37,351 bases of DNA from the NCBI GenBank assembly GCA_018654575.1, contig JABILI010000012.1:1-37351 (forward strand), given 5' to 3'. Each line of letters begins with the position of its first letter. Positions within the stretch are counted from its first letter, which is position 1. Made by a program: the position numbers and the translations under genes. Positions 753 to 36,778 of this stretch are shown in pieces. The notes under the pieces were generated by a model that was not told where the DNA came from, did not search any database, and was given only the letters and a program-made list of their open reading frames with translations. The DNA comes from Porticoccaceae bacterium. GTDB lineage: Bacteria; Pseudomonadota; Gammaproteobacteria; Pseudomonadales; Porticoccaceae.

Positions 753-890
753 AACAATTACCCTCAAAATTTCACCCTCAATATACCCTTAAGATGCTGT
801 TATTGCCCTACTCAAAAATGACAGCTTAAATGAAACAAATTACTTACTCCTCATCCTTGTTTTGCTATAGCTTCGGTGAGAGAATAAATT

Positions 891-9589: not shown

Positions 9590-10684
9590 GTGGATTTTGA
9601 TTTATCTGAAACACAGCGGTTATTTCAAGCAACGACTGAGCGCTTTGCCAGTACCGTTGATGTAGCAACCCGACTCTCTATTAGAAGCCTGGATGGTAGC
9701 TATGACAAGAGCCGGTGGCAGGAACTAACCGAATTAGGGTTATTAAGTATTGGTGCAAGCACCGAGTTTGATGGTCTAGATGGTTCACTGACAGACTTAA
9801 GCGTTATAGCTGAAACGCTAGGGCTCAACAACGCGTTAGATCCATGGCTTGAGAATGGAGCATTCCCCGTAAGGTTAGGTAATATCGCTACTGATGATGC
9901 ATTATTAAAGGCAATACTTGATGGTAGCCAGCTGGTCTCAGTTGCTTTTGCAGAACAAAACAACCGCTACGAACTCTTTCCAGGTAACACGATAATAACA
10001 ACACGTGATGACGGTAGCGGTTACTACTTAAATGGTGAAAAGCATTTTGTTCTAACAGCCGCTCTTGCAGATATATTACTTGTCACTGCTCAATTCAATG
10101 GTGAATTTGGCATTTACTCTGTTGCAGCGAACAGCGACGGTGTCGATACTCATTACTACCGCCTCGCAGATGGCAGCCAGGCTGCGGCACTGACTTTTAA
10201 ACAGGTAGAACTGTCCCTTGATACTCGGCTTAGCATTGATTTTGAGCAATTTCAGGACGTCATTGCAGAAATCAATGTGTTGTGTTGTTCCGAAATACTC
10301 GGTCTTAGCCAGCTTCTACTCAATGAGACAATAAGCTACGTGAAAGAGCGTGAACAGTTTGGTACCACTATTGGTTCATTCCAATCAATCCAACATGGTC
10401 TGGTTGATTGTTACAGTGCACTCGAACAGATGAGATCACTTCTTTTTCGAACATTGTTATTAGAAGATAAAAGCGGTGAAAAATGGCGTGCAAACGTTAT
10501 GGGAGCTAAAGCTTTCATCGGCGAAAATGCACATCTTATCGCTCACAAAGCAGTCCAGTACCATGGTGCCATGGGAATCACAGATGAGGTTTCTATAGGG
10601 CACGCAATGAAGAGAATTATGCTGCTATCGCGTTTATTCGGCGATGTAGCCAATAACCTTAAACACTACGCGAGAAGTACATGA
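9590..10684 (+). CDS. Acyl-CoA dehydrogenase subunit lacking an evident catalytic base (ChsE-type partner)
   Basis: 364 residues from a GTG start; MDFDLSETQRLF is a normal ACAD beginning. Substrate/flavin regions and the KEREQFGTTIGSFQSIQ segment are present. The C-terminus ends in LSRLFGDVANN instead of the YEGTSQIQ element that carries the catalytic Glu, and the alternative helix-G position used by isovaleryl-CoA dehydrogenase aligns with a non-acidic residue (AEINVLCC). Such short, base-lacking ACADs pair with a catalytic subunit in alpha2-beta2 enzymes of steroid side-chain degradation (ChsE1/ChsE2, CasC type). The likely partner is encoded at 12471 in the same operon. Its stop overlaps the next start by four bases (ATGA). 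Confidence 0.85.
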   Translation: MDFDLSETQRLFQATTERFASTVDVATRLSIRSLDGSYDKSRWQELTELGLLSIGASTEFDGLDGSLTDLSVIAETLGLNNALDPWLENGAFPVRLGNIATDDALLKAILDGSQLVSVAFAEQNNRYELFPGNTIITTRDDGSGYYLNGEKHFVLTAALADILLVTAQFNGEFGIYSVAANSDGVDTHYYRLADGSQAAALTFKQVELSLDTRLSIDFEQFQDVIAEINVLCCSEILGLSQLLLNETISYVKEREQFGTTIGSFQSIQHGLVDCYSALEQMRSLLFRTLLLEDKSGEKWRANVMGAKAFIGENAHLIAHKAVQYHGAMGITDEVSIGHAMKRIMLLSRLFGDVANNLKHYARST

Positions 10685-11076
10685 CAAAAAATTTACAACC
10701 TATCGCATCAGGGCTCTGGAGCGATGAGGCACAACCTCACTTACTCGCCGGGCAGTCAACCGACGGTAGGATTTTTTTCCCAATTCCAGAAGGAGATTCT
10801 GGTAAAAACCTCGAGGTTATTAAACTCTCCCGTACTGGCACCCTTTGGTCATTTACTCGGCAGGACTTTAAACCAAAGCCCCCTTATGACGGACCCGAAG
10901 AATTCAGTCCGTTCCTGCTCGGTTATGTTGAGTTGCCAGGTGAGATCATCGTTGAATCGTATATCATAGGCACTACGCTCGAGGAGCTGAAAATAGGTAT
11001 GGCGTTAGAGTTTGTGATAACACCCTTTGATGAAAAACGCTCGACCTATGCATTTAGACCGGAGCAAACATTATGA
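10681..11076 (+). CDS. DUF35/OB-fold protein without zinc-ribbon cysteines (ChsH2/Ltp2-partner-like)
   Basis: 131 residues. The C-terminal half (GTLWSFTRQDFKPKPPY, then PFLLGYVELP) is a DUF35 OB-fold, known to bind Ltp2-type thiolases and some MaoC-like hydratases. The usual N-terminal rubredoxin-like zinc ribbon (C-x2-C pairs) is replaced by GRIFFPIPEGDSGKN; the protein has no Cys at all, so zinc cannot be bound in the normal manner. It is coupled on both sides by ATGA overlaps, with the ACAD before and the Ltp2-like gene after. It most likely acts as the stabilising or acyl-channel partner of the thiolase-fold protein in retro-aldol cleavage of a branched hydroxyacyl-CoA. Confidence 0.82.
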   Translation: MTKNLQPIASGLWSDEAQPHLLAGQSTDGRIFFPIPEGDSGKNLEVIKLSRTGTLWSFTRQDFKPKPPYDGPEEFSPFLLGYVELPGEIIVESYIIGTTLEELKIGMALEFVITPFDEKRSTYAFRPEQTL

Positions 11077-12218
11077 GTAAGGTTTATATCATCGGGGCAG
11101 GCATTCACCCATTTGGCCGCACTGAAGAACGCTCTGGGCGCGACCAGGGAGTGTTTGCTGTGCGCGAAGCTCTCAACGATGCCAATTTAGAATGGGACGA
11201 CATTCAGTTTGCCAGCGGAGGATCGATTGCAGCCGGAAATGCTGATGTTATGATTAATGATCTCGGCCTCACGAGTTTGCCGTTTATTAATGTATTCAAC
11301 GGTTGTGCAACGGGGGGTAGTGCCTTATCGACCGCTCAGAACGCAATCGCTTCAGGTCAATGTGACATAGCAATGGCCGTTGGTTTTGATAAACATCCAC
11401 GTGGAGCTTTTAACGCCAATCCAAAGGCGTTCGGACTGCCCGATTGGTACGGCCAAACTGGCATGATGTTAACAACCCAGTTTTTCGCTTTAAAGCTTCA
11501 ACGCTACATGCAACTGCATGGAATTAGTAGAGAAACTTTGGGTCGTGTGGCTGAAAAATCTTTTCGCAATGGCGAACGAGCAAACCATGCTTGGCGTCGA
11601 ACGCCAATGGATTTAGATACGATCTTAAACTCCACAATGATCAATCATCCATTATCAAAATTTATGTTTTGCGCACCTGCTGAAGGAGGTGTAGCACTCG
11701 TTTTAGCCAGTGAAAAAAAGGTACGCGAATTAGGCGCCAATGCTGTGGGCATTGCCAGCGTAGCTATTCGTAGCCGTCCGCCAGGCTCATTTGAAGTGTT
11801 TGCGCCTTCAATGGAAGTCGAAGACGGCGGCAAACCTACTATCCTGGCATCAAAAGCCGCATTTGAGATGGCAGGGATTGGTCCAGAAGATATTGATGTT
11901 GCTCAACTTCAAGATACCGAATCTGGCGCTGAAATTATGCACATGGCCGAAAATGGCTTTTGTGAAGATGGCGATCAGGAGCAGTGGTTAGCTGAGGGTC
12001 GCACAGAAATTAATGGTGCCCTACCGATCAATACCGATGGTGGCTGTATTGCATGTGGCGAACCTATCGGTGCTTCTGGATTACGACAAGTCTACGAAAA
12101 TGTCACTCAGTTGAGAGGTCGCGGTGAGGCCAGACAAGTAAGTGGAAAAGTAAAAACCGCCTATAGCCATGTATACGGCGCTCCCGGTCTTTCCGGTGTT
12201 GCTATTCTGGAGGTCTAG
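11073..12218 (+). CDS. Ltp2/SCPx-type thiolase-fold protein, probable retro-aldolase
   Basis: 381 residues, thiolase fold. Cys78 sits in the nucleophile segment (NGCATGGSA). The motif that reads GHPxGASG in true thiolases is GEPIGASG here (Glu330 in place of the catalytic His), and the C-terminus has HVYGAPGLSG in place of the CxGGG loop. The GEP change and adjacent DUF35 gene fit the Ltp2 aldolases, which split a C-C bond in the hydroxylated side-chain CoA ester of steroids (propionyl-CoA or acetyl-CoA leaving) rather than doing thiolysis. Its first codons overlap the DUF35 gene (ATGA) and its TAG shares its last base with the next GTG. Confidence 0.85.
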   Translation: MSKVYIIGAGIHPFGRTEERSGRDQGVFAVREALNDANLEWDDIQFASGGSIAAGNADVMINDLGLTSLPFINVFNGCATGGSALSTAQNAIASGQCDIAMAVGFDKHPRGAFNANPKAFGLPDWYGQTGMMLTTQFFALKLQRYMQLHGISRETLGRVAEKSFRNGERANHAWRRTPMDLDTILNSTMINHPLSKFMFCAPAEGGVALVLASEKKVRELGANAVGIASVAIRSRPPGSFEVFAPSMEVEDGGKPTILASKAAFEMAGIGPEDIDVAQLQDTESGAEIMHMAENGFCEDGDQEQWLAEGRTEINGALPINTDGGCIACGEPIGASGLRQVYENVTQLRGRGEARQVSGKVKTAYSHVYGAPGLSGVAILEV

Positions 12219-12470: not shown

Positions 12471-13679
12471 ATGGACATGAACTTATCAGTAGAAGACCTT
12501 GCGTTTAAAAATGAGGTTAGCTCATTTTTAGATGATAATCTAAGCGAATATCTTCGCACCGGCCTGTTGCGAACACCAGGGGTGTTTGTCGAACCAGATA
12601 TCGGTGAGGAATGGCATAAAATCCTCTATAAAAAAGGATGGATAACACACCACTGGCCAGTTGAAGATGGCGGTATGGGATGGACTCCAATGCAAACTTA
12701 CATTTACGAAAAAGAAGTAGCACTGGCTCAAGCGCCGAAACCCGCTCCGATAAGTTTGACACTCATTGGGCCGGTTTTGTGTAAATACGGATCTACAGCA
12801 CAAAAAGAAAAGTTTTTACCACGTATAAGATCAGGTGAAGATTTTTGGTGCCAAGGTTATTCGGAACCTGCCAGTGGATCTGATTTGGCCTCTCTATCGA
12901 TGCGCGCGGTGCTGGAAGGTGACAAGTACGTGCTGAACGGCTCTAAAATCTGGACCACACATGCACAACATGCCAATTGGATATTCTGTTTAGTCAGAAC
13001 CGATACATCCGTAAAAAAACAAGCGGGTATAACGTTTCTACTTGTACCACTTGACCAGCCCGGCATTAAAGTTGCGCCCATTTTATCGATGTCCGGTGAT
13101 CACGAAGTCAATCAAGTGTTCTTTGACAACGCTGAGACTTTGCTGGAATACAGGGTTGGGGATGAAGGACAAGGCTGGGAAATAGCAAAATTTCTTCTGC
13201 AAAATGAACGAGGTGGCAGCTGCTTTGCACCAAAGACTCTGGTACATATCTCTGATTTAGAAAAATACGCCGACACCTATGAAACTGCTGATGGTAAGAC
13301 GATGAAGAATGACCCAGACTTCATGAATCGTCTCGCTAAATTAAAACTACGCGCTCACGCGCTGGAATTTACCGAGTTACGCATTCAGGCTGATATTGCC
13401 AATGGCCGCCCAGCAGGTCCCCAAACATCGCTGACCAAATTAATCTCTTCGAATCTAGCTCAAGATGTGCAGGCCCTGCATAACGAACTATTTGCCTATG
13501 AAGGTTTACAGCTTCCATCAGAACGCCCCCTGTACCATGACGATGCTCCTGAACCGATTGGCAGTGCTGCTGGGCAGACCTCACTAGCGGCTTACCTTAA
13601 TGGCCGTGCAGCGACCATTTATGGCGGCAGTGACGAAGTTCAGAAAAATATTATTGCCAAACAAATTCTTAGACTATAG
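12471..13679 (+). CDS. Acyl-CoA dehydrogenase, catalytic subunit of a heteromeric enzyme
   Basis: 402 residues. AAGGAG lies seven bases before the ATG; only one base separates it from the preceding TAA. ACAD landmarks in order: YSEPASGSDLA (134-140 region, substrate/flavin loop), NGSKIWTTHA, and a late IYGGSDEVQKNI. The YEG Glu of medium-chain enzymes is Gly here, but Glu246 in LLQNERGGS falls where isovaleryl-CoA dehydrogenase has its base, so this subunit can be catalytic. With the base-lacking subunit at 9590 it probably forms an alpha2-beta2 ACAD of the steroid side-chain type (FadE28/29, ChsE). This pairing is inferred from operon position and residue pattern. Confidence 0.88.
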   Translation: MDMNLSVEDLAFKNEVSSFLDDNLSEYLRTGLLRTPGVFVEPDIGEEWHKILYKKGWITHHWPVEDGGMGWTPMQTYIYEKEVALAQAPKPAPISLTLIGPVLCKYGSTAQKEKFLPRIRSGEDFWCQGYSEPASGSDLASLSMRAVLEGDKYVLNGSKIWTTHAQHANWIFCLVRTDTSVKKQAGITFLLVPLDQPGIKVAPILSMSGDHEVNQVFFDNAETLLEYRVGDEGQGWEIAKFLLQNERGGSCFAPKTLVHISDLEKYADTYETADGKTMKNDPDFMNRLAKLKLRAHALEFTELRIQADIANGRPAGPQTSLTKLISSNLAQDVQALHNELFAYEGLQLPSERPLYHDDAPEPIGSAAGQTSLAAYLNGRAATIYGGSDEVQKNIIAKQILRL

Positions 13680-19081: not shown

Positions 19082-19903
19082 CTAATCCTTAAAAATAACA
19101 TCGGCCTTCAAGCAGGTTCGGCCATCGCCACCGATGGTCGCCACCTTTCCCTGGCGACCATTAATGTTAGCCGTTAGGTATAGTGGCTGGTCGCAAAAAG
19201 CTGCAGAAAGGGCCTTAAAAGAAAACTCTTTTATTTCACCATGCTGCGCTGCCAGCTGCAGGGCCTGTGTCGCCATCAAGGGTCCCTGTACTACTAGTGC
19301 CGGGTACAACTCCTCAGACTTCGCGTAGGGTAGGTCGTAGTGGATACGGTGGGTGTTAAATGTCAGCGACGAGTAACGGAAGAGTATTGTAGGCTCTGGC
19401 TTTAATTGCTCGACAATTTGCCAGCCGTCGGGTGCACCTGCAGAGACCTTAGGCAAAGGGGTGCGAGAGCCGGCGGCCTCCCGGTATACGATCGTTTGCT
19501 GTTCTCTGATAGCGATATCGTCATTCACCCATGTTTCATGATCGACCTCAACAAATACCAAGGCGCCAGTTTTGCCTGTTTTTTCGTTAATTGCGGTAAT
19601 ACTCGAGCGTCTAACAATACTCGCCCCTAAAGGCAGGGGCCGTAGAAACTCTACCCGACTGGCGGCCCACATACGTCGTGGTAAATTAATCGACGGCATA
19701 AACCCGCCCTTTGGAGGATGACCATCCAGCCCTAGTTCTGAAGTGGATGTGTCTGGCAGGCAAAGGCACCAATGATATCCATGCGGCGCAAAAGTTCCTT
19801 CATGCTCAAGGCCAAAGGTCGCGCAAAAACGATCTACTCCAGCTTGAGAGATCACATCACGCTGCTCAAGTGTCTTGCCTACCCATGCTTGGTAAGTGCT
19901 CAC
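19082..19903 (-). CDS. meh: Mesaconyl-C4-CoA (3-methylfumaryl-CoA) hydratase-like protein (Meh family)
   Basis: 273 residues, a double-hotdog (FAS1-like/HTD2-type) dehydratase. The N-terminal hotdog runs to about 150; the second carries the active-site segment YSSLTFNTHRIHYD (177-190) with Asn183, His185, His188 and Asp190, then PALVVQGPLM. This is the pattern of mesaconyl-C4-CoA hydratase, which makes (S)-citramalyl-CoA in the 3-hydroxypropionate bicycle. Its GTG start overlaps the stop of the Mcd-like gene (GTGA), and that gene overlaps the Mct-like one. The context of all three makes the Meh call stronger than sequence style alone. It might instead hydrate another branched enoyl-CoA. Homology judged from memory; confidence in exact substrate is moderate. 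Confidence 0.75.
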   Translation of the reverse strand: MSTYQAWVGKTLEQRDVISQAGVDRFCATFGLEHEGTFAPHGYHWCLCLPDTSTSELGLDGHPPKGGFMPSINLPRRMWAASRVEFLRPLPLGASIVRRSSITAINEKTGKTGALVFVEVDHETWVNDDIAIREQQTIVYREAAGSRTPLPKVSAGAPDGWQIVEQLKPEPTILFRYSSLTFNTHRIHYDLPYAKSEELYPALVVQGPLMATQALQLAAQHGEIKEFSFKALSAAFCDQPLYLTANINGRQGKVATIGGDGRTCLKADVIFKD

Positions 19904-21546
19904 TTAGTCGGCCTTGAAGTCAACTTTCCACGCGCAACAACTTGGGCCTGTATTTCACCCGCACCTTCAAAAATGTTCAAAATACGAGCATCACATAAAA
20001 TCCTGCTTATTTCATATTCCATTGCGTAACCATTGCCGCCGTGAATCTGCAAACTTGCATCTGCACTGGCCCAAGCAGTTCTTGCCGCCAGTAGTTTTGC
20101 CATGCCGGCTTCAATATCACAACGATGGCATTTGTCTTTCTCTCGTGCCGCAAAATACGTAAGTTCTCTTGCTAGTAAGATATCAACCGCCATCATAGCT
20201 ATCTTATCTGAGACACGCGGAAACTCAAATATAGATCGTTTGAATTGTTTGCGCTCCAAAGCATAGTTTAGCCCTAGTTCTAACGCTCTTCTAGCTACAC
20301 CAACGGCTCTCGCCGCAGTCTGTATTCGAGCTCCCTCAAAGGTTTTCATCAACTGTTTAAAACCGTTGCCTTGTTCTCCACCCAGCAAGGCGCTGTCTTG
20401 AAGCTGAAAATCATCAAAAGCCAGCTCGTACTCGCGCATTCCCCGATACCCAAGAACTTCAATCTCAGTGCCACTTAGTCCTTCAACAGGGAAAGGTTCG
20501 TCTTCACTACCTCGAGGTTTAGGCACCAAAAACATAGATAACCCAGCATATCCTTTTTCATCAGGCTTGCTTCTAGCCAACAATGTCATTAAATCAGAAC
20601 GAGAAGCGTGCGTAATCCAGGTTTTATTTCCTTTGATTTTCCAACCATCATCAGTGCTCACCGCGCGAGTAGTTAAGGCACCCATATCAGACCCCACATC
20701 GGGTTCAGTGAAAACGGCGGTCGGTAACACGTCACCACTTGCGATTCCTGGTAACCACTGATCGCACTGCTGGGCAGTACCACCCAGCGAGATTAGCTCA
20801 CCTGCTATTTCCGAACGTGTACCCAGCGAGCCTGCGGCAATCCAGCCTCGACTTAATTCTTCGGTAACAACGCTCATAGCAAGCTTACCAAGGCCAAGCC
20901 CACCAAACTCCTCAGGTATGCAAATGCCAAACGTTCCCATATCAGCCAATTCAGCAACGATCTGATCGGGAATAAGAGCATTTTGCAAATGCCATTGATG
21001 AGCATGCGGAATAATTCGTTCGTTTGTAAAACGACGATACTGATCTCGGGCGGCATCAATGAAATCATCACCCAGGCGTTCACTGGCAAACACGCCATCT
21101 CGACATTGCTCTGCCAAAGCAAGACGATTCTCGGCTGTATTCCCGGTGTTTAGTAACTCTGCAACAGAGACATCATTAGCTAAATTATTGGCTTCAATAT
21201 TCAAGCCAAAATCAGTTGGCCTGATCACTTCGTTTTGCCCCATCGCTACTCCACCCAATATCTGGGCTAGGTACTCACCGAACGCTATTTGCACACTTAA
21301 TTGCTCTACCTGCCGGAAATTACCACTCTCATGCAATGATTCTGCCCAGCGCAGTAAAACACTGAGCGCAGTTGCGGTTGAAGTGATCCAAGCATAGCCA
21401 TGCACTATTCTCTGATGTTTATCAGCCAATTCAGAGACCATTCTGCCATCTTGAATAGTCGCTTGATCCACGACCTGATGAACCTGTTCAACATAATGAT
21501 CCAACGCTGTGAGAGCGGCCTGATAGGTTGTAAACTCTGTACTCAT
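19900..21546 (-). CDS. mcd: Methylsuccinyl-CoA dehydrogenase-like acyl-CoA dehydrogenase (Mcd family)
   Basis: 548 residues, about 160 longer than a normal ACAD. The extra N-terminal domain is helical and contains QIAFGEYLAQILGGVAMGQN and then EVIRPTDFGL, a segment characteristic of (2S)-methylsuccinyl-CoA dehydrogenase of the ethylmalonyl-CoA pathway. The ACAD core follows from about 165, with TEPDVGSDMGALTTRA, KGNKTWITHAS, ERKQFKRSIFEFP and the catalytic Glu527 in IFEGAGEIQ. Expected reaction: methylsuccinyl-CoA to mesaconyl-C1-CoA, electrons to ETF. The ATG overlaps the Mct-like stop (ATGA) and its own TGA overlaps the Meh-like GTG. No ethylmalonyl-CoA mutase or crotonyl-CoA carboxylase is in the window, so the substrate is likely made differently here. 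Confidence 0.8.
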   Translation of the reverse strand: MSTEFTTYQAALTALDHYVEQVHQVVDQATIQDGRMVSELADKHQRIVHGYAWITSTATALSVLLRWAESLHESGNFRQVEQLSVQIAFGEYLAQILGGVAMGQNEVIRPTDFGLNIEANNLANDVSVAELLNTGNTAENRLALAEQCRDGVFASERLGDDFIDAARDQYRRFTNERIIPHAHQWHLQNALIPDQIVAELADMGTFGICIPEEFGGLGLGKLAMSVVTEELSRGWIAAGSLGTRSEIAGELISLGGTAQQCDQWLPGIASGDVLPTAVFTEPDVGSDMGALTTRAVSTDDGWKIKGNKTWITHASRSDLMTLLARSKPDEKGYAGLSMFLVPKPRGSEDEPFPVEGLSGTEIEVLGYRGMREYELAFDDFQLQDSALLGGEQGNGFKQLMKTFEGARIQTAARAVGVARRALELGLNYALERKQFKRSIFEFPRVSDKIAMMAVDILLARELTYFAAREKDKCHRCDIEAGMAKLLAARTAWASADASLQIHGGNGYAMEYEISRILCDARILNIFEGAGEIQAQVVARGKLTSRPTK

Positions 21547-22769
21547 GAATTTCTCTCTCCCACTACACCTTGCTCTATTAACTGCGACACCTTATCTTCA
21601 TCTAGACCCAACACTGACGCTAAAACAGACGTAGAGTGCTGACCTAAATGCGGTGCCACATTGGGTGTGCCCCGCTTATGATTGGCGATAGTCAAAGCCG
21701 AGCCAGGGGTCGGGTAGGTATAGTTACTAGGGTTTTTAATTTCACTAAAAACGGGGTTATTTTTAACCAGAACCTCGTCCTCAGCAGCATCATGCATACT
21801 TTGATATTCACCCCAGCAACCGCCGACAGCATCCAACGCAGACTGAAGCTCTACCGCTCGTCTCAGACAAACACGTGACTCAATCAAAGGATAGAGTGCA
21901 TCACTGTGTTCATAGCGCACACCCTCATCTTTGGCGAATGTCACACCTCTGGCAGACTCCACTTCGCTGACTTGCTGCTCAATCTCAAGAACGCTTAACA
22001 AGCCTCGCCACTGTCGTGGAGTAATAGCCATGATCATCATGCGCTTACCATCGGCTGTCTTGAAATCTTTACCAAAGGCGCCATAGACCTGGTTGCCATG
22101 TCGGGTGCGATTACCATCCTGATACAACACTTCTGCGAGTTGCCCCATATTGGCCATTGCCGTTACACCAATATCAGCCAGTGGTATTTTGTATTCGCCA
22201 CCCTCACCTGTTGTTGCTCTGTGTTTGTCGGCTGCTAACAAACTAAATGCCGTGTATGCCCCAGCTAAAAGATCCCAGGCAGGTAATACATGATTAACAG
22301 GCTCATCATCTGGCAGTGACTGCGGGCCAGTCATTAAAGGGTATCCAAGCGCACAATTGACGGTGTAATCTAATGCAGGCCCGCCATTGGCTTGACCCAT
22401 CACGCGCGCAACGATCACATCTTCACGCTTTTCCTTAAGTTTCTTGTACGACAAAAATCCATTTTGCGGGAAATTGGTCAACAATATGCCGCCATTTCCC
22501 CCAGGAGCGCAGGCCAGGTCTTGAATTAGGCTTTTACCTTCGTCAGTACCTATATTTACTGTTATGGATTTCTTGCCTTTATTCAGACCTTCCCAATAAA
22601 AGCTGGCACCCTCATTACTTTTTGGCCAACGGTTATAATCTGGACCTCCGCCAATCGTATCAACACGAATCACTTCGGCACCCAGTTGCGCAAGATACAA
22701 ACCAGCGCTAGGCGAAGCTACAAAAGAAGATGCCTCGATAACGCGTAATCCCTTTAAAATTCCATACAT
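21543..22769 (-). CDS. mct: 2-methylfumaryl-CoA isomerase-like family III CoA transferase (Mct family)
   Basis: 408 residues, CaiB/BaiF (class III) CoA-transferase fold. The N-terminus GILKGLRVIEASSFVASPSA and later DYNRWPKSNEGASFYWEGLN, DYTVNCALGYPLMTGP and QVYGAFGKDF closely follow the style of mesaconyl-CoA C1-C4 CoA transferase (Mct), which moves CoA within one mesaconate molecule. The catalytic Asp is probably Asp166 in PAWDLLAG, at the family position before the helix leading to ATTGEG. It is coupled to the thiolase upstream (five-base gap) and to the Mcd-like gene downstream (ATGA). It would turn mesaconyl-C1-CoA from Mcd into the C4 isomer for Meh. A succinyl-CoA-dependent transferase is the alternative. 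Confidence 0.8.
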   Translation of the reverse strand: MYGILKGLRVIEASSFVASPSAGLYLAQLGAEVIRVDTIGGGPDYNRWPKSNEGASFYWEGLNKGKKSITVNIGTDEGKSLIQDLACAPGGNGGILLTNFPQNGFLSYKKLKEKREDVIVARVMGQANGGPALDYTVNCALGYPLMTGPQSLPDDEPVNHVLPAWDLLAGAYTAFSLLAADKHRATTGEGGEYKIPLADIGVTAMANMGQLAEVLYQDGNRTRHGNQVYGAFGKDFKTADGKRMMIMAITPRQWRGLLSVLEIEQQVSEVESARGVTFAKDEGVRYEHSDALYPLIESRVCLRRAVELQSALDAVGGCWGEYQSMHDAAEDEVLVKNNPVFSEIKNPSNYTYPTPGSALTIANHKRGTPNVAPHLGQHSTSVLASVLGLDEDKVSQLIEQGVVGERNS

Positions 22770-22774
22770 AAAAC

Positions 22775-23980
22775 TTAGGTTCCGAGAGGACCGATGATAG
22801 AAACTGAACTCACATTTTGTGAAGGCATACCGCCCAAATTATGTGACAAACAAAAGGTGGGGGCAATTTTACGCTGACGCTCGCCAGCTCTGCCTAATAG
22901 TTGCAAGTAATTCTCATACACCATGCGCAAACCTGAGGCGCCGATCGGATGGCCAAAACATTTCAAACCACCATCTATCTGACAGGGGACTTTGCCATCT
23001 GCATCAAATAGTCCATTTAGTACATCTTTCCACCCCTCCCCCTCTTTTGAAATAAACAGGTCTTCCATGGTGATCAGTTCAGTAATAGAGAAACAGTCAT
23101 GTACCTCGGTCAGAGACAGCTGACTGCGAGGGTCTGTTATACCCGCTTCTTTATAGGCTTTTGTTGCAGCAACGCGGGTGGTGTGTAGATAACTGCCATC
23201 CCATTGATCGCTTTGCATTTCCCAGCCATTAGAGCTGACCACCTGCATCGCCTTTATCGCGACGATATCAGTTTTACCCAGAGATTTGGCAATTTCCGGC
23301 GTAGTAACGATCGCACAGGCTGCGCCATCGGAAACACCACAACAATCAAAAAGACCCAATGGTTCGGCTATCATTGTAGCATTCAAGGCTTTATCAATAT
23401 CAATCACATTACGTAAATGCGCCTTAGGATTTTTAGCGCCATTAGCGTGACTTTTAACAGAGACGTGCGCCATGGCCCGTTTGAGATCTGATTTTTCAAT
23501 TCGATGTTTTGCACCATAGGCACTGGCCAATTGGGCAAAATTCCCCGGTGCTGATCCGGTGACACCGATCATATCCCAGCGTGAACCACGAGTTCGAGTC
23601 GGTAAACCGCCATAGCCGGTATCTTTAAGTTTTTCCACACCCATAGCCAGGGCGATATCTGCCGCGCCTGAGGCGACCGCATAGACCGCCCCTCGCAGCG
23701 ATTCTGTGCCGCTGGCACAATAGTTCTCAACCTTGGTGACACCTATGTCAGGCAGTCGCAGTGCCACTGCCGCCGGAATGCCCGATGGCCCGGTGCTTTG
23801 CGCATCAAACCCGACACCCAACCAGGCCGCATCAAGCTGCGATACCTCAATACCAGCGTCTGCAATTGCCTCTTCAAAAGCCTCGACCATCAAACCATCA
23901 GCATCGGTGTCCCAGCGCTCGCCAAAGCGTGCACAACCCATACCTAAAATAGCGACCTTATCTTTAATGCCACTTGCCAT
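22775..23980 (-). CDS. Thiolase (acetyl-CoA acyltransferase, SCPx/archaeal-like type)
   Basis: 401 residues from the ATG at 23980. This start is preferred to one 12 codons upstream because GAGGAGA precedes it and it shares one base with the upstream stop (TGATG). Cys88 (NYCASGTES) is the acyl-accepting nucleophile; GHPIGASG retains the catalytic His, unlike the Ltp2-like protein at 11073; the C-terminus has CLSHNLGG. It resembles the thiolases that pair with DUF35 and HMG-CoA synthase proteins in archaea. It should cleave a 3-oxoacyl-CoA. The directly upstream gene is an HMG-synthase-like/DUF35 fusion, so a complex of the two is likely. Confidence 0.88.
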   Translation of the reverse strand: MASGIKDKVAILGMGCARFGERWDTDADGLMVEAFEEAIADAGIEVSQLDAAWLGVGFDAQSTGPSGIPAAVALRLPDIGVTKVENYCASGTESLRGAVYAVASGAADIALAMGVEKLKDTGYGGLPTRTRGSRWDMIGVTGSAPGNFAQLASAYGAKHRIEKSDLKRAMAHVSVKSHANGAKNPKAHLRNVIDIDKALNATMIAEPLGLFDCCGVSDGAACAIVTTPEIAKSLGKTDIVAIKAMQVVSSNGWEMQSDQWDGSYLHTTRVAATKAYKEAGITDPRSQLSLTEVHDCFSITELITMEDLFISKEGEGWKDVLNGLFDADGKVPCQIDGGLKCFGHPIGASGLRMVYENYLQLLGRAGERQRKIAPTFCLSHNLGGMPSQNVSSVSIIGPLGT

Positions 23981-25428
23981 CAGGACTCTCCTCGTTGCAC
24001 TGGTATAGCTTTCCAAAAATATTTTCTAAACCCACGAAGCTCGTCAAATGCCTTTATTCTGAAAACCATTCTCATTTGCTTGCCCACATCAGCCTCACCC
24101 TCTTCAATATCGGCAAACTCTGCGACCATACGTCCACCACCTTCGAAATCGATCATCCCGTAATAACTTGGGGGATCAGGTGAATAGGCCAGTCGATCCG
24201 CAGTAAAACTGAGGACCGTAGCGCGACGATCGGCAAGCGGATAGTCTTCGAAGGTTCCAGTCGCCCTTGAGACAGTATTTACCGGCAGATCGGTCTTGGG
24301 GAACTGAATCACTCCAGTTTCGGTACATTTACCACCAATCAACCCCAGTACCGTTTTACGGTCACGGGCAAGACTAGTGCCTGGCTGTTTTTCATCCAAC
24401 TCGGCGCGCATACCCTTATCAATATCTAGTAACCCTCGATGAAACAGATACCTTGAGTAGTTGGTATCTTGTAAACCGGGCTGCATAAATTCTGTCTGTC
24501 TCTTGTTGACTACTCCCAAGTATTCGGTCGTTTCAAAAACCATCACATCAGCGCCCTGGCCGAAGCTAGCTAGCAACACTTTTTGACCAGGCTTAGCCTT
24601 TTGAAGTGTCATCGCTAACATTAATAATGGATGGCAGACACCTGTATCGCCGATAGTTGCCATATGGGGATCCGCTACGGCTTCAACTGGCATTCCTGCA
24701 ACAGCCGCAAGTTTTTGTGGTACGCCTTTTACTGGTACAGCGATCACTGCATGATCAATGGCATTTCCCGAGATCTCTAGCTTAGCCAAGGCGGACTTAA
24801 TAGTTGAGCCTAGAATTTTCTGATAGCCCTCGTCGCGCACAAAGCGAGCTTCCCAGGTGTAATCGAAATCCGCACCCGTTTCACGATAATGATCAACGAA
24901 GTCGATCGTGTTGGAGTATCCGCCAAGGTAATTTGCAATAACGTCGCCAGAGCCCGTTAAAAAAGCTGCTGACGCATCGCCATAACTCATTTCCTGTATA
25001 GACGCGACTTTAGATTTACGTCGGTCAGCGGCCAGACACAGGTCGGTAGAATCGTTTTGTAGTGATTGCATGAGTGAACTAGTAGCAGCTCGAAGGCTGC
25101 CGGTTTGATCAGCACTCATGACATTATCAGAGAGATTCAATGCTTCTTTAGCAATACCCGCATTAGATCGGTCAGCAAAGGGCAACGTAGTTGAAGCCAG
25201 ACTAACTGACTCAATTAAAGTGCGATCAATGCCATCCAAGCAATAACGCCCAGCCTCAACCGCCATTGTCACGGAGTCTTCATCCCAATTACTAATCGCC
25301 TTTTCACCGTTCGCCAGACCACTCAATCCAGGGGCATACCAACTGTTGGCCTCATAGATAGAGCTTCTTTGAAGACGGCGGCGAGGTACATAAAGGCCAT
25401 AACTTAAAATGCCGGAATTCATACTCAT
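23980..25428 (-). CDS. HMG-CoA-synthase-like protein fused to a DUF35/OB-fold domain
   Basis: 482 residues. Residues 1 to about 310 are a KAS III/HMG-CoA-synthase-like fold (GILSYGLYVPRRRL; NWDEDSVTMAVEAG; DTGVCHPLLML). The position of the synthase nucleophile Cys is Ser111 in QTGSLRAATS, and the Glu of the synthase ATES motif is not apparent, so normal condensation is unlikely. Residues ~360-482 form a DUF35 unit: a degenerate zinc ribbon with only Cys368 (GGKCTETGVIQFP), then an OB-fold (ATVLSFTADRL; YYGMIDFEGGGRM). Fusions of this layout occur beside thiolases. It may serve as an acyl-CoA carrier or platform for the thiolase at 22775, first gene of the five-gene operon. Confidence 0.85.
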   Translation of the reverse strand: MSMNSGILSYGLYVPRRRLQRSSIYEANSWYAPGLSGLANGEKAISNWDEDSVTMAVEAGRYCLDGIDRTLIESVSLASTTLPFADRSNAGIAKEALNLSDNVMSADQTGSLRAATSSLMQSLQNDSTDLCLAADRRKSKVASIQEMSYGDASAAFLTGSGDVIANYLGGYSNTIDFVDHYRETGADFDYTWEARFVRDEGYQKILGSTIKSALAKLEISGNAIDHAVIAVPVKGVPQKLAAVAGMPVEAVADPHMATIGDTGVCHPLLMLAMTLQKAKPGQKVLLASFGQGADVMVFETTEYLGVVNKRQTEFMQPGLQDTNYSRYLFHRGLLDIDKGMRAELDEKQPGTSLARDRKTVLGLIGGKCTETGVIQFPKTDLPVNTVSRATGTFEDYPLADRRATVLSFTADRLAYSPDPPSYYGMIDFEGGGRMVAEFADIEEGEADVGKQMRMVFRIKAFDELRGFRKYFWKAIPVQRGES

Positions 25429-25586: not shown

Positions 25587-26375
25587 ATGATAGATAATGA
25601 ATACTTACTGTATGAAATCAAGAACAATGTCGCTGTTATAACCTTAAACCAGCCGAATTCCATGAACGCCATAAGTCCGGAGTTTGCACAAGCACTTGAA
25701 GAAGCCGTTGACTGTGCTAGCAAAGATGCAGGCGCGATTGTTTTGCTAGGCAGTGACCGCGCATTTAGTTCCGGCGCCAATCTAAAAACCAACCGATTCG
25801 ATCAGGGTAATACTGAAATAGACGTCGGTATTAATCTGGAAAATGTTTACAACCCGTTTTTAAACAAACTAACTGAGCTGCCTATTCCTTTAATCGTTGG
25901 CGTCCGTGGCGCAGCTGCAGGGATCGGATGCTCTATCGCATTAATGGGTGACATTATCATCGCCGGTCGTTCGTCATTTTTCTTACAGGCGTTCTGCAAC
26001 ATTGGTTTGGTTCCAGATGGCGGCGCTGCCTTTTTACTCGCTAAATCGGTCGGACGGGTTAAGGCCATGGAATTAATGCTGCTTGGCGAACGCTACCCAG
26101 CGGAGCAAGCACTCCTGGATGGCTTAATCACTCGTATGGTAGAAGACGACGAGGTGATAGAAACCGCAATGAAGTATGCTGACAAGCTGGCTAAAGGCCC
26201 CAGTAAAGCTTTAGCAATGATTCGTAAATCTGCTTGGGCTGCCTTAGACTCGAGCTTCGAGGACCAACTTAAATTAGAACGAAAATTACAAAAGACTGCG
26301 GGACTAACGCAGGATTTCAAAGAAGGTGTGGCTGCGTTTCGAGAAAAACGCAAACCCAATTTCACTGGTAAATAA
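25587..26375 (+). CDS. Crotonase-family enoyl-CoA hydratase/isomerase (PaaG-like)
   Basis: 262 residues, single crotonase domain. The oxyanion-hole segments AFSSGANLKT (59-68) and GAAAGIGCSIAL are present. The first catalytic Glu of hydratases is absent; instead Asp144 in NIGLVPDGGAAF matches the acid of PaaG-type isomerases, which shift double bonds or open epoxide-derived rings. So an isomerase role on a ring- or chain-derived enoyl-CoA is more likely than hydration. It starts 158 bp from the divergent HMG-synthase-like gene and ends 11 bp from the convergent Rieske gene. AAGG lies some 11 bases before the ATG. Confidence 0.88.
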   Translation: MIDNEYLLYEIKNNVAVITLNQPNSMNAISPEFAQALEEAVDCASKDAGAIVLLGSDRAFSSGANLKTNRFDQGNTEIDVGINLENVYNPFLNKLTELPIPLIVGVRGAAAGIGCSIALMGDIIIAGRSSFFLQAFCNIGLVPDGGAAFLLAKSVGRVKAMELMLLGERYPAEQALLDGLITRMVEDDEVIETAMKYADKLAKGPSKALAMIRKSAWAALDSSFEDQLKLERKLQKTAGLTQDFKEGVAAFREKRKPNFTGK

Positions 26376-30312: not shown

Positions 30313-31467
30313 TTATCGCTCATGATCACGGATCATCTCTTTTGCTATCAGCAATTGCTGAATTTGAGAGGTGCCCTCATACAACCTAAAGATACGTACA
30401 TCACGGTAAAACCTCTCCACTGCATAGTCCGCAATATAACCCGAACCACCGTGTATTTGTACGGCACGATCCGCCACGCGGCCAACCATTTCTGTGCAAT
30501 ATAGTTTGCAGGCAGCCGTATAGCGAGACAAGCGGCCACCGTTATCAAACATGCGTGCAGTTTCTTCCACCATGCATTTACCCGCAAAATATTCGGTCTC
30601 GCTGTCAGCGAGCATCGCTTGGATTAACTGGAAGTCAGCTATGCGCTGATTAAATTGCTTTCGCTCTAAGGCATAACTCAAGCTGTCATCAATCAAACGT
30701 CGCGCGCACCCTAGGGCGACCGCGCTCATATGTAAACGGCCTCTGTCGAGCACCTTCATCGCAGTGATAAATCCCTTGTTGGGTACGCCGCCAATAATGG
30801 CGTCTTTGGGAATCTTCACATCTTTCATAATGACATCGCAGATGTGGGCGCCGCGCTGCCCCATTTTTTCATTAAGAACCCCAAGTTCTATCCCTGGCAA
30901 GTCTGCATCCATCAGAAATGCTGTAACACCCCTGGAGCCTTCATCCACTGTTCCCGTACGCGCCATTAAGGTGAACACACCAGCTCGATTTGCGTTGGTA
31001 ATGTAACGCTTGGTTCCGTTAACAACATAGTGATCCCCCTCCAACCGCGCAGTTGTCCGCACAGACCCTGCATCCGAACCTGCATCTGGTTCGGTTAAAG
31101 CGAATGAACCGACCAATTTACCGCTCGCCATCCGCGGTAAATATCGTTGTTTTTGTTCTTCGGTGCCATCAATCAAAATTCCTTGCGAGCCGATACCAAC
31201 GTTGGTACCAATAACACTACGAAAAGCCGGCGACGCATAGCCAAGCTTTTGTATCACATGAGCCTCTTCTTCGACGCTCAGTCCTATACCCCCATATTCT
31301 TCAGGTATAGAAAGGCCAAACAAACCCATCTCTTTCATTTGCTCAATAATTGCCGGAGGAACCGCATCATCATCGGATACCTTCTTCTCCATTGGGATAA
31401 GCTCATTGGCCACGAATTTTTCGATACTTGCTAAGAGTTGGTTAAACGTTTCTTTGTCGAGAGCCAT
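30313..31467 (-). CDS. Acyl-CoA dehydrogenase (homotetrameric type)
   Basis: 384 residues, the usual ACAD length. Landmarks: GLSIPEEYGGIGLS, FALTEPDAGSDAGSVRT, NGTKRYITNA, ERKQFNQRIADFQLIQ, the IHGGSGY segment, and catalytic Glu364 in RLYEGTSQIQ. All active-site features of short/medium-chain ACADs are present, unlike the split pair at 9590/12471. It introduces a 2,3-double bond in an acyl-CoA, with electrons to ETF. The TonB receptor follows on the same strand after 183 bp containing the dyad operator, so the two are probably separate transcripts. The divergent SnoaL-like gene starts 309 bp away. Substrate not deducible. Confidence 0.92.
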   Translation of the reverse strand: MALDKETFNQLLASIEKFVANELIPMEKKVSDDDAVPPAIIEQMKEMGLFGLSIPEEYGGIGLSVEEEAHVIQKLGYASPAFRSVIGTNVGIGSQGILIDGTEEQKQRYLPRMASGKLVGSFALTEPDAGSDAGSVRTTARLEGDHYVVNGTKRYITNANRAGVFTLMARTGTVDEGSRGVTAFLMDADLPGIELGVLNEKMGQRGAHICDVIMKDVKIPKDAIIGGVPNKGFITAMKVLDRGRLHMSAVALGCARRLIDDSLSYALERKQFNQRIADFQLIQAMLADSETEYFAGKCMVEETARMFDNGGRLSRYTAACKLYCTEMVGRVADRAVQIHGGSGYIADYAVERFYRDVRIFRLYEGTSQIQQLLIAKEMIRDHER

Positions 31468-34396: not shown

Positions 34397-36778
34397 CTAT
34401 TCTGACAGTGATAAAGAACTGCGTGCATTTTTGGAAATATCACTACTCTCAAAATAAATATCTCGCCATTCTTTATCGCGATAACGCGCTGTTTGATCAC
34501 TAAAATTTTCAGAACTTGGCGCGCCTGACTGGCTATAGGACAAAATTGCCTCAGCGCGTGGGCCCTTATCGGTAAAGTTAACAGTCATGATGAAGCTCGA
34601 GCCATGGGCGATATTATAGCCACTGCTGCTCAACGTTTTACTATCACCCAAACGGTCATTACTTCCAGAGAATATAGGTGAATCGATATAAGGACGAGTC
34701 ACCTGAAGATTAGCAATGCCTTCACGGCTATTCCCACCATGCACGGGGAATGGAGTGCCGGCTCGATGTGCTGTTTGCAGATCGCCTAGCGAGATGTCTA
34801 GCTCAATACTCGCATTATTTAGAAGCAAAGCTGCCTCCGCGAGTGCTATTAGCGGCCGCTCTCCTGTCGCAAGCCCTACTGGTGTCAGCGCTGGTTTTTT
34901 TACATCGAACTCACCAGAAAACAGGGGGCCTGGAAATCGCGTGGCAGTAACGTCATAGCGAGTTATCCACTCTCTAAACAACACCGCACCTCGGCTCTCT
35001 AAATTGTAGCGGTTATCCCAGCTCTCTAAAATATTACACGCATTGGTTAAATCAACAGACTCATCGGCTATTGAGACTTTAGGATTCTGTTTGCATCGAT
35101 CAAGTAACTCAGGCTTGAGTAAATGTGCAGATAAACCTGAATTGTCGAACAGAGCCGCTTGAATCTCTTTGGGTGAAAACAGGCCATCCTCGCCGCGGAA
35201 ATTAAATCCGTTTAGGCCCTCCAGTATATGGATATTCATCCGAGTGCGGACGCTCCGTGGCGTCTTGGTGGCACCATATAAGGGTGAGTAACCGGTGGTG
35301 GGGTGTTTAGGGTCGCTCAGCCAGTAACTATCATTTGAATTAAACACGTAATAATCACTTTCAATCAATGGCCGCTGTTCAAACGTAGTTGTGCCAGGTG
35401 TCAAAGCATCCGGGTGCGCAACCCACTCGTCTCGAAGAGTGCTTCCATCAAGAATGACTAGGCCCTTGGTTAAATACAATTGCTTCAATTGAGGCACCTG
35501 CTCAATGCGTGCATTCCAGGCTTCTATTGCCTCAGAACTGAGCGCTCCCACATTGCTATTATCAAGGTAGACAGCTCGGCCTTCTGCGCTGGTTGATATA
35601 GTATTTACCCATGGCATCGCGTTGTATGTTTTATGCGCTTGGATAAATTCATCCATAGACTGTGCTTGCCCCATTGCTAACCACTGGGCCATCACTTGAG
35701 TATTGTCGCTATTGGCATCACGAGAGGCATAGGCCGTTTGCTTGGTCCACGCAAGCCCCGGTATTTGAACGATTGGCCCGTGGTGACTGAACCAAATAGG
35801 CGTGGTTTGGATTTCCATCCCTTCGCTTGTTAGCACGCTGATAGATACGTCACGCGCTTCGAGTGAACGCCACTCTCCCTCGTAACGGTATTGTGTTGGA
35901 TCCTCTGGATTCAGGGTAAGCTGATAAAGCACTACGCGTTTAGAATCTGATACGGTGTGTGTCCAACCAATGGCATTGTTGAAGCCGATGGCAACACCAG
36001 GATTTCCTACTAAGCTAGCGCCATATACATTCAATTCTCCAGGGATAGTCAAATGCTTTTCCCAAAATCGACTGGTGCCATACCAGGGATAGTGTGGGTT
36101 GGCTAATAGCGTGCCCTTACCATTTTTCGTGGCTTTACCTCCAAATGCCCAGCCATTAGACCCCATGCCTTCGAGTTTAATGGCGTTAAGCGCCGCCATT
36201 TGCTGTGATGGAGCCACCTCAACAGTAGCCGTTGTTGCAGGCGGTTGAGCTGCTACAACAGCAGCCGCCATTCGGGTAATAGTATGCACTGAGACCACAT
36301 ACTGAGTCATAAAGTCTTCAGCACTGACGGGCCTCACCCATGGTGCATGGTCACACCACGAACCGAATTCTCCTGCGGAATCGTTTAGATATCGGTTATA
36401 GCCTTCGGTGTATCCCTCAATCCATTTTCTGATTTTCCCAGTCTGAGCGGTCAGCGCGGCGCGCCCCTTCACTGGCATATTCAAGGCTTTCATCACCATA
36501 TCGCTATACACATGAGCGTTCTCATGCCCCGCACCCAAATACTGTGCCGCTTCACCTTTGGCGGTAATTAGAGCCACGGCCATATTGCACACATGATCTT
36601 GCCCAGAGGCATAAGCTTCACCATAGCCGAGACTGCCATAGTCCGCGGCTTTAATGTGGGGTACACCATATTGTGTGCGCACAATGTCTACTTGATACCG
36701 TGATGAATCCTTAGTGTCTGGCTGGCATGCGGCCAGAGCCATTATTGCGATACACAGTAAAAGATAAATCTTTTTCAT
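34397..36778 (-). CDS. Penicillin-acylase-family Ntn-hydrolase, predicted lipoprotein
   Basis: 793 residues. The N-terminus MKKIYLLLCIAIMALAAC is a lipoprotein signal with lipobox LAAC (Cys18), so the enzyme is membrane-anchored on the periplasmic side. An alpha-subunit part to ~170 is followed by a Thr/Ala/Pro-rich spacer (176-200), then Gly206-Ser207-Asn208 (GMGSNGWAFGG), where autocleavage would free Ser207 as N-terminal nucleophile. NPHYPW and FNSNDSYWLSDP are the downstream motifs of the aculeacin/AHL-acylase branch. It hydrolyses an amide bond. In this context it may remove an amino-acid or acyl conjugate from the substrate before uptake; AHL or lactam hydrolysis is the alternative. Confidence 0.9.
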   Translation of the reverse strand: MKKIYLLLCIAIMALAACQPDTKDSSRYQVDIVRTQYGVPHIKAADYGSLGYGEAYASGQDHVCNMAVALITAKGEAAQYLGAGHENAHVYSDMVMKALNMPVKGRAALTAQTGKIRKWIEGYTEGYNRYLNDSAGEFGSWCDHAPWVRPVSAEDFMTQYVVSVHTITRMAAAVVAAQPPATTATVEVAPSQQMAALNAIKLEGMGSNGWAFGGKATKNGKGTLLANPHYPWYGTSRFWEKHLTIPGELNVYGASLVGNPGVAIGFNNAIGWTHTVSDSKRVVLYQLTLNPEDPTQYRYEGEWRSLEARDVSISVLTSEGMEIQTTPIWFSHHGPIVQIPGLAWTKQTAYASRDANSDNTQVMAQWLAMGQAQSMDEFIQAHKTYNAMPWVNTISTSAEGRAVYLDNSNVGALSSEAIEAWNARIEQVPQLKQLYLTKGLVILDGSTLRDEWVAHPDALTPGTTTFEQRPLIESDYYVFNSNDSYWLSDPKHPTTGYSPLYGATKTPRSVRTRMNIHILEGLNGFNFRGEDGLFSPKEIQAALFDNSGLSAHLLKPELLDRCKQNPKVSIADESVDLTNACNILESWDNRYNLESRGAVLFREWITRYDVTATRFPGPLFSGEFDVKKPALTPVGLATGERPLIALAEAALLLNNASIELDISLGDLQTAHRAGTPFPVHGGNSREGIANLQVTRPYIDSPIFSGSNDRLGDSKTLSSSGYNIAHGSSFIMTVNFTDKGPRAEAILSYSQSGAPSSENFSDQTARYRDKEWRDIYFESSDISKNARSSLSLSE

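Follow-up and report, generated by a model that had tools for sequence, protein, structure and literature searches.

Proposed route

What could be the role of a CoA transferase, an acyl-CoA dehydrogenase and a hydratase of mesaconyl-CoA metabolism that are encoded side by side within a catabolic gene cluster? This question is raised by the contig JABILI010000012.1 of the Porticoccaceae bacterium assembly GCA_018654575.1 (2.42 Mb, 97.55% complete), which was analysed over positions 1 to 37,351 (C1:1-37351), a stretch of 37,351 nucleotides referred to here as the window. It carries three genes that overlap by 4 bp each, with ATGA at 21543-21546 between Mct and Mcd and GTGA at 19900-19903 between Mcd and Meh:

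21543-22769, minus strand: Mct-like family III CoA transferase, 408 aa, of a clade called here Mct-II; proposed mesaconyl-C1-CoA to mesaconyl-C4-CoA transferase
19900-21546, minus strand: Mcd, predicted (2S)-methylsuccinyl-C1-CoA dehydrogenase with its N-terminal domain, 548 aa
19082-19903, minus strand: Meh/Ich-type MaoC hydratase, 273 aa, GTG start; predicted to convert mesaconyl-C4-CoA to citramalyl-CoA

An earlier interpretation made from the letters alone (the sequence-only reading) had described these three overlapping genes and suggested that they lead from methylsuccinyl-CoA to citramalyl-CoA. Its open reading frames (ORFs) are exact and both overlaps are present in the sequence, to which the minus strand is added here, and the combined route is the best-supported reading of the block. 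It is likely, in our judgement from the gene comparisons below, that Mct, Mcd and Meh together with a lyase constitute the terminal methylsuccinyl-CoA drain of a large catabolic cluster. Thiolysis by enzymes of this cluster, probably a thiolase and its partner protein whose genes start the operon, would set methylsuccinyl-CoA free. Mcd would then oxidise (2S)-methylsuccinyl-C1-CoA to mesaconyl-C1-CoA, passing the electrons to the electron-transferring flavoprotein, Mct would shift the CoA from C1 to C4 within mesaconyl-CoA by an aspartyl-CoA mechanism, and Meh would hydrate mesaconyl-C4-CoA to (S)-citramalyl-CoA. Finally, citramalyl-CoA would be cleaved to acetyl-CoA and pyruvate by a lyase of CitE type whose gene belongs to this cluster but lies just beyond the window. 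Gene content, family membership, catalytic residues, operon layout, conservation of the cluster and the linkage of the lyase in sister genomes follow from the sequence comparisons themselves. We infer the substrates, direction, electron acceptor and stereochemistry of these steps, as well as the specificity of the lyase and the thiolytic release of methylsuccinyl-CoA.

The dehydrogenase

Residues 32-540 of the 548 in Mcd, which include the N-terminal domain of ~170 residues, match the Paracoccus enzyme PdMCD (PDB 6es9) with 639 bits, at 58% identity; the next PDB match is 8ciw, also a (2S)-methylsuccinyl-CoA dehydrogenase, with 280 bits. Mcd is identical to PdMCD at all 11 positions checked (248, 252, 285, 287, 318, 320, 376, 380, 418, 421 and 535), among which are Arg252, Arg376, Arg421, Glu535, Ala285 and Phe287; residue numbers for this enzyme and for Mct were taken from sections of PMC5798300, PMC9813914 and PMC9196870. 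The residue pattern was PdMCD-like in 26 of 40 aligned rows (the window protein and PdMCD counted) and 8ciw-like in 13, one row being incomplete. In a tree of 42 chosen acyl-CoA dehydrogenase (ACAD) rows, which has several long outgroup branches and some joins flagged as unsafe, the window protein falls in a 21-row clade with 6es9 (ultrafast bootstrap/SH-aLRT 81/99), separate from the 8ciw group (100/100). The Mcd assignment of the sequence-only reading is thus upheld, with the protein inside the PdMCD clade and not outside Mcd. The 8ciw-type enzymes have Ile at PdMCD positions 285 and 287 and Ser at 380.

Mcd is an enzyme of the ethylmalonyl-CoA pathway, according to sections of PMC5798300, and it could be argued that the window enzyme serves that pathway as well. 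We consider this highly improbable. In the genome scan, Ccr (TIGR01751) stays below its cut-off (best 86 bits vs 379), and the two mutase genes each pass a cut-off, one that of methylmalonyl-CoA mutase (1255 bits vs 876) and the other that of IcmF (1761 bits vs 1500). Because of both results, Mcd is not taken to serve a complete ethylmalonyl-CoA pathway, of which neither Ccr nor Ecm was found in the 97.55% complete assembly. Outside the window, four MaoC-domain (PF01575) genes were found; one of them has a name in NCBIfam (PaaZ) and three have no family there, in a scan that included no search specific for mesaconyl-C1-CoA hydratase. Moreover, the 4-bp overlaps bind Mcd to Mct and Meh. The two mutases are of the B12 type, so that the independence from vitamin B12 mentioned in the sequence-only reading carries no weight here.

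The CoA transferase

The transferase scores 374 bits with the Mct family TIGR04253, under its curated equivalog cut-off of 725, while the next family reaches 89 bits and the succinyl-CoA:mesaconate transferase family 63. It matches 2-methylfumaryl-CoA isomerase (PDB 8apq) with 352 bits over residues 1-404 and is 43% identical to Mct of Chloroflexus aurantiacus. The catalytic Asp165 and the carboxylate-binding Arg47 and Tyr136 are all present in it, and are kept in 85/85, 84/85 and 82/85 rows, respectively, of an alignment that includes one distant transferase (26% identical to Chloroflexus Mct). The corresponding tree (84 rows) separates a Chloroflexus part from the part with the window protein, with support of 83/96 at the drawn split and 100/99 for the 29 rows that contain Chloroflexus. 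The nearest relatives, 87-89% identical, were found by the genome collection scan in SAR92/Porticoccaceae records. Relatives at E <=1e-40 occur in 7 of 369 genomes sampled from the class, 21 of 390 sampled from the order and 24 of 72,556 plasmid records, 14 of these 24 having been examined, and a single scan of genome contigs with the Mct protein gave 48 loci.

The hydratase

Up to E=1 the hydratase has only two PDB matches, itaconyl-CoA hydratase 8khg and the MaoC_dehydrat_N protein 8huc, with 182 bits each, and it is 39% identical to 8khg. In its stretch N-x-H-R-I-H-Y-D, Asn183, His185, Ile187, His188, Tyr189 and Asp190 are present in 20/20 aligned rows and Arg186 in 19/20. The PDB search returned no Meh, and no NCBIfam family was matched at E 1e-5; for this reason Meh and Ich are not distinguishable here, and of the earlier call as a mesaconyl-C4-CoA hydratase we retain a Meh/Ich-type homologue.

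The citramalyl-CoA lyase candidate

The sequence-only reading had proposed a genome search for a citramalyl-CoA lyase. This search yielded a candidate of the HpcH_HpaI family and of CitE/Ccl type, outside the window at C13:108-980, at the start of its contig and, in sister genomes, within the cluster itself. Its nearest PDB matches are 5ugr (131 bits) and 3qll (121 bits). A second PF03328 gene over the cut-off, on contig C95 (L006), adjoins homoprotocatechuate-like genes and had no relatives in the loci then compared; because of these foreign neighbours and missing relatives, the C13 gene (L007) was taken as the candidate. Its position is to be seen together with the gene at the left end of the window:

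3-788, minus strand: short-chain dehydrogenase/reductase (SDR) gene, truncated where the contig stops; in the sister genomes G771 and G778 the next gene is the CitE/Ccl-type lyase

The window cluster is largely collinear in G771, where it is followed by Rieske1, LuxR, SDR and the lyase, and G778 ends alike; G771 differs in that the acyl-CoA ligase gene lies elsewhere and a second LuxR-type gene is present. The distance between lyase and Mct in the sister genomes is 22.6-22.8 kb. In the assembly studied here, the 107 bases of C13 before the lyase fit, by eye and against G771, the remainder of the SDR gene that runs off the window, so that, very likely, the lyase gene follows directly beyond the left end of the window; no overlap of >=10 bases was found between the ends of C1 and C13.

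Among 50 genomes of the genus, Mct was detected in seven, five of the window type (87-100%) and two at 41-44%. A CitE-type lyase was likewise detected in seven at E <=1e-30, and four of these (the present genome, G771, G778 and G780) have one that is >=69% identical to C13:108-980. All four genomes with this orthologue are among the five with Mct-II. The window-type genus genomes are apparently the same as the Porticoccaceae records L036-L039 and do not form separate evidence. Two other genomes of the genus, G761 and G788, possess another cluster, with Mct, an 8ciw-type Mcd, Meh and a lyase within ~12 kb.

The operon

Two further genes precede the three on the same strand:

23980-25428, minus strand: HMG-CoA-synthase/PhlA-like domain fused to a ChsH2-type OB domain (HMGCS-OB); first gene of a five-gene block
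22775-23980, minus strand: thiolase of the archaeal acetoacetyl-CoA thiolase type (PRK06157 665 bits, cut-off 403; 6esq_A 175 bits)

The start of the thiolase was set at the ATG at 23980 instead of the listed TTG at 24016, as its Sphingomonas paeninsulae orthologue (79% identical) begins at the matching residue. Given this start, and because the thiolase ends 5 bp ahead of the start of Mct, the genes for HMGCS-OB, thiolase, Mct, Mcd and Meh look like a five-gene operon. The matches of HMGCS-OB are 9skh, a 2,4-diacetylphloroglucinol biosynthesis protein (96 bits), 5m3k, which is PhlA (87 bits), 6esq_I (67 bits) and the Pfam domain OB_ChsH2_C. As a pair (22775-25428, minus strand), HMGCS-OB and the thiolase resemble the archaeal thiolase/HMG-CoA synthase complex 6esq as well as PhlACB. 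When HMGCS-OB is aligned to PhlA, no cysteine is visible at the position that would correspond to the catalytic one of HMG-CoA synthases. Relatives of the two proteins accompany Mct in 11 of the 48 loci according to a clustering of neighbour ORFs, which mixed real and spurious frames in loci of high G+C content and was used solely for these two families.

Recurrence in other genomes and plasmids

All five genes of the block, from the HMGCS-like gene through Meh, are found in 3 of 4 SAR92/Porticoccaceae loci, the fourth ending inside Mcd, and in one Arenicella locus, and the order Mct-Mcd-Meh recurs on two sphingomonad plasmids. Among the contigs with the cluster is one of SAR92 clade bacterium H921. 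This recurrence argues that the three-gene arrangement is not due to chance. On pSHV1 of Sphingobium herbicidovorans MH, genes for a CoA transferase, an ACAD, a MaoC protein and an aldolase/citrate lyase are consecutive, which corresponds to Mct-Mcd-Meh-lyase. The first three products are 51, 64 and 43% identical to their window counterparts; the lyase shares 30% identity with that of C13 and has 3qll as its nearest PDB match (198 bits). The Sphingomonas paeninsulae plasmid shows the row MaoC, HMGCS-OB, thiolase, ACAD, Mct, Mcd and Meh, in which the six genes from HMGCS-OB to Meh encode products 47-79% identical to the window proteins, and no lyase is annotated within the 48 kb inspected.

The plasmid pCADAB1, associated with degradation of the herbicide 4-chloro-2-methylphenoxyacetic acid (MCPA), carries Mct-II and Mcd (L089 12001-15049) separated by an 82-aa ORF, with neither Meh nor lyase annotated beside them. 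The genes for 3-oxoacid CoA-transferase/pcaF are ~25 kb away, and those for maleylacetate reductase and chlorocatechol dioxygenase ~43 kb. By eye, the 82-aa ORF is like the start of a 3-oxoadipyl-CoA thiolase. A Paraburkholderia sp. 22B1P plasmid (L126 6523-11248) has two CoA transferases around a MaoC gene, a CoA ester lyase and a second MaoC gene, and no ACAD is annotated in the stretch inspected.

We tallied the neighbours in 86 Mct loci, namely 73 of the 74 in L010-L083 (L083 was dropped as its match was too short), the 11 plasmid loci L088-L098, L119 and L120; L100-L117 and L125-L127 were left out. Many of these loci are only ~4 kb long, so that the counts are lower bounds. Within 12 kb, the 31 loci that score nearer to Chloroflexus Mct have an 8ciw-type Mcd in 19 and a PdMCD-type in 2, and the 55 that score nearer to the window Mct have a PdMCD-type Mcd in 25 and an 8ciw-type in 1; the split by score is not exactly that of the tree, as L072 scores Chloroflexus-like and falls in the window part. 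Meh-type genes are near in 7 Chloroflexus-like and 17 window-like loci, and lyase-type genes in 7 and 8, respectively. All four functions occur together within 12 kb in nine of the 86 loci (L031, L068, L072, L079, L080, L090, L098, L119 and L120), two of which are same-genus genomes in which both Mct and Mcd are of the other lineage. That two lineages of each enzyme have entered the same partnership would be what speaks most strongly for a shared pathway. The pairing of 8ciw-type Mcd with Chloroflexus-type Mct was seen in L019-L023, L026-L029, L092, L096 and L098, from same-order genomes and plasmids.

Observations against the route and other explanations

Several observations weigh against the proposed route. 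First, the cork of the transferase is not retained in the window protein: Leu43 is replaced by Pro, the CoA-binding Arg75 by Gly and Arg104 by Asn. According to sections of PMC9813914, Leu/Ile43 is conserved in every transferase known to act intramolecularly, of which four are named; position 43 is Pro in 50 of the 85 aligned rows (the window included), Leu/Ile in 34 and Asp in one. Because of the cork residues and the TIGR04253 cut-off, the window transferase is described as Mct-like, of a sister clade of Chloroflexus Mct that usually has Pro43, rather than as an Mct proper; what stands of the original Mct call is that the protein is far nearer to Mct than to the other families matched. Second, the C13 lyase is under the family cut-offs (RipC_Ccl 168 bits vs 375, citE 199 vs 443) and lies 19-20 kb from Meh, outside the operon. 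The fifth Mct-II genome, G774 (82% complete), shows no lyase, and G784 has a 35% identical lyase relative without Mct. If the genomes were independent, the probability of co-occurrence by chance would be ~2e-5 for the lyase orthologue and ~3e-6 for any lyase with any Mct (6/7), but the genus genomes are related, the events are not independent and both figures overstate the case. Third, 29 of the 55 window-type loci, assigned by best score and many of them short, lack both types of Mcd within 12 kb, and for this reason Mct-II may have other substrates.

The lost cork residues would favour methylsuccinate or methylsuccinyl-CoA as the substrate. The transferase might activate methylsuccinate, as Ict does in Pseudomonas and Cupriavidus (PMC12290011), or turn methylsuccinyl-C4-CoA into the C1 ester, besides or instead of the mesaconyl transfer. 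From the intermediates given in parts of PMC3877037, thiolysis of 5-methyl-3-oxoadipyl-CoA in MCPA degradation should give the C4 ester, and it is on an MCPA plasmid, pCADAB1, that Mct-II and Mcd are found. Yet the low score with succinyl-CoA:mesaconate transferase speaks against this explanation, and Arg47, which in Mct fills the space of the gating loop of intermolecular enzymes (sections of PMC9813914), is kept in nearly all rows. Furthermore, a C4-type hydratase acting after a C1-type Mcd still requires a step from C1 to C4. We therefore regard this explanation as unlikely.

Other loci bring up a larger substrate. In Phenylobacterium, Mct-II is accompanied by ordinary ACADs, with neither Mcd nor Meh nearby, and four loci of ~7-11 kb (L043, L044, L045 and L047), from Pelagerythrobacter, Altererythrobacter and Marinicaulis, have HMGCS-OB, thiolase and Mct, again without Mcd or Meh nearby; there Mct-II may use another substrate. 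Both would fit three enzymes whose substrate is a larger dicarboxyl-CoA of the parent compound, with a methyl or carboxy substituent, and with the transferase moving the CoA so that beta-oxidation continues. ThnP of naphthalene degradation, a family I enzyme, is a chemical precedent (PMC11659651, in part). However, all checked pocket positions of PdMCD are kept in the window Mcd (Arg252, Arg376, Arg421, Ala285, Phe287 etc.), and sections of PMC5798300 ascribe to this pocket a specificity for (2S)-methylsuccinyl-CoA. The linked candidate for a citramalyl-CoA-type lyase counts against a larger substrate as well, which appears quite improbable for the window genes. The drain from methylsuccinyl-CoA to citramalyl-CoA is hence the reading that we carry forward.

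Relation to known pathways

The sequence-only reading had presented the module as a joining of enzymes from separate cycles. This holds for the combination of a C1-type Mcd with Mct and Meh, and less so for the overall conversion, as a C4-ester route that takes methylsuccinate to acetyl-CoA and pyruvate, with mesaconyl-C4-CoA and (S)-citramalyl-CoA as intermediates, was published in 2025 for Pseudomonas aeruginosa and Cupriavidus necator (PMC12290011); mutant evidence for the itaconate-methylsuccinate cluster of Pseudomonas and Cupriavidus is reported in part of PMC9875883. The window resembles that cluster of Ict, Ich, Ccl, C4-Mcd and Msi in that its hydratase is a homologue of itaconyl-CoA hydratase and the C13 lyase matches the RipC_Ccl model, although under the cut-off. 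It differs in that the published route activates free methylsuccinate at C4 and uses a C4-ester dehydrogenase with no transfer between C1 and C4, whereas the window has a C1-type Mcd and a Mct homologue as the bridge. No MmgE/PrpD family turned up among the window proteins that were scanned, which are a part of the total.

The Mct-Meh-Mcl leg of the 3-hydroxypropionate bi-cycle (Chloroflexus and Roseiflexus; partial in Kentron) has the same Mct and Meh functions and the same end products of citramalyl-CoA, but there mesaconyl-C1-CoA comes from beta-methylmalyl-CoA, while the proposed source in the window is methylsuccinyl-CoA via Mcd. With the ethylmalonyl-CoA pathway of Paracoccus the window shares Mcd; with no Ccr or Ecm found, the product would enter the C1/C4 transfer and not be converted to glyoxylate and propionyl-CoA. 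In the open-licence literature, judged by titles and the beginnings of abstracts and with most subscription journals outside its coverage, we found no paper on a C1-Mcd, Mct and Meh route. The module is a recombination of known enzymes and a C1-ester variant of the known methylsuccinate route; it occurs in several genera and seems to have been put together on more than one occasion.

Parent substrate and wider cluster

The remaining genes of interest in the window are:

25587-26375, plus strand: enoyl-CoA hydratase; a relative with 46% identity also lies near the S. paeninsulae module
30313-31467, minus strand: acyl-CoA dehydrogenase (ACAD_c) belonging to the wider cluster; in two sphingomonads, a relative is the gene immediately preceding Mct

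A second thiolase/OB pair lies at 9590-12218 (plus strand), after an ACAD of small-subunit type, and an ACAD of large-subunit type follows downstream at 12471-13679. We take the 9590-12218 gene set to resemble the aldolase arrangement of steroid side-chain degradation. At the edge of the cluster, 34397-36778 (minus strand) holds a lipoprotein-like ORF of 793 aa that is penicillin-acylase-like by eye.

As to the parent substrate, the Rieske and ACAD matches in the window fall far short of equivalog cut-offs, and the only models passed by the thiolases and the acyl-CoA ligase are broadly named ones. Since substrate-specific models were not reached, degradation of a steroid or isoprenoid is neither shown nor excluded, and methylated aromatics are an equally good source of methylsuccinyl-CoA. 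Methylsuccinyl-CoA is reported as an end product of 4-methylcatechol ortho-cleavage in the methylmuconolactone pathway, in sections of PMC6449761 that do not describe its further fate. Thiolysis of 4-methyl-3-ketoadipyl-CoA in this 4-methylmuconolactone (mml) pathway gives an input of the kind required by the module, and is expected to give the C1 ester, the only one that enters a C1-type Mcd directly. No ortho-cleavage genes were recognised in the window, where no model search was aimed at them. Sections of the paper on pCADAB1 (PMC3877037) trace the carbon to succinyl-CoA, and neither "acyl-CoA" nor "methylsuccin" occurs in its main text.

Perhaps the drain of Mcd, Mct, Meh and lyase was assembled at least twice in Proteobacteria from different lineages, finishing methyl-branched rings and methylaromatics, with Mct-II as a distinct intramolecular enzyme of loosened cork that converts methylsuccinyl-CoA as well as mesaconyl-CoA back and forth between the C1 and the C4 ester. 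We offer this only tentatively and hold it to be doubtful. If it were true, a dual-substrate Mct-II would let either thiolysis product enter the drain.

Implications

With its genes named, the module offers an answer that can be tested to the question of the fate of methylsuccinyl-CoA, and the Mct-II clade offers a second lineage in which intramolecular CoA transfer can be studied. The module would also explain why marine and soil bacteria have Mcd and Mct genes that belong neither to the ethylmalonyl-CoA pathway nor to CO2 fixation. Mcd or Mct genes alone should therefore not be read as signs of either.

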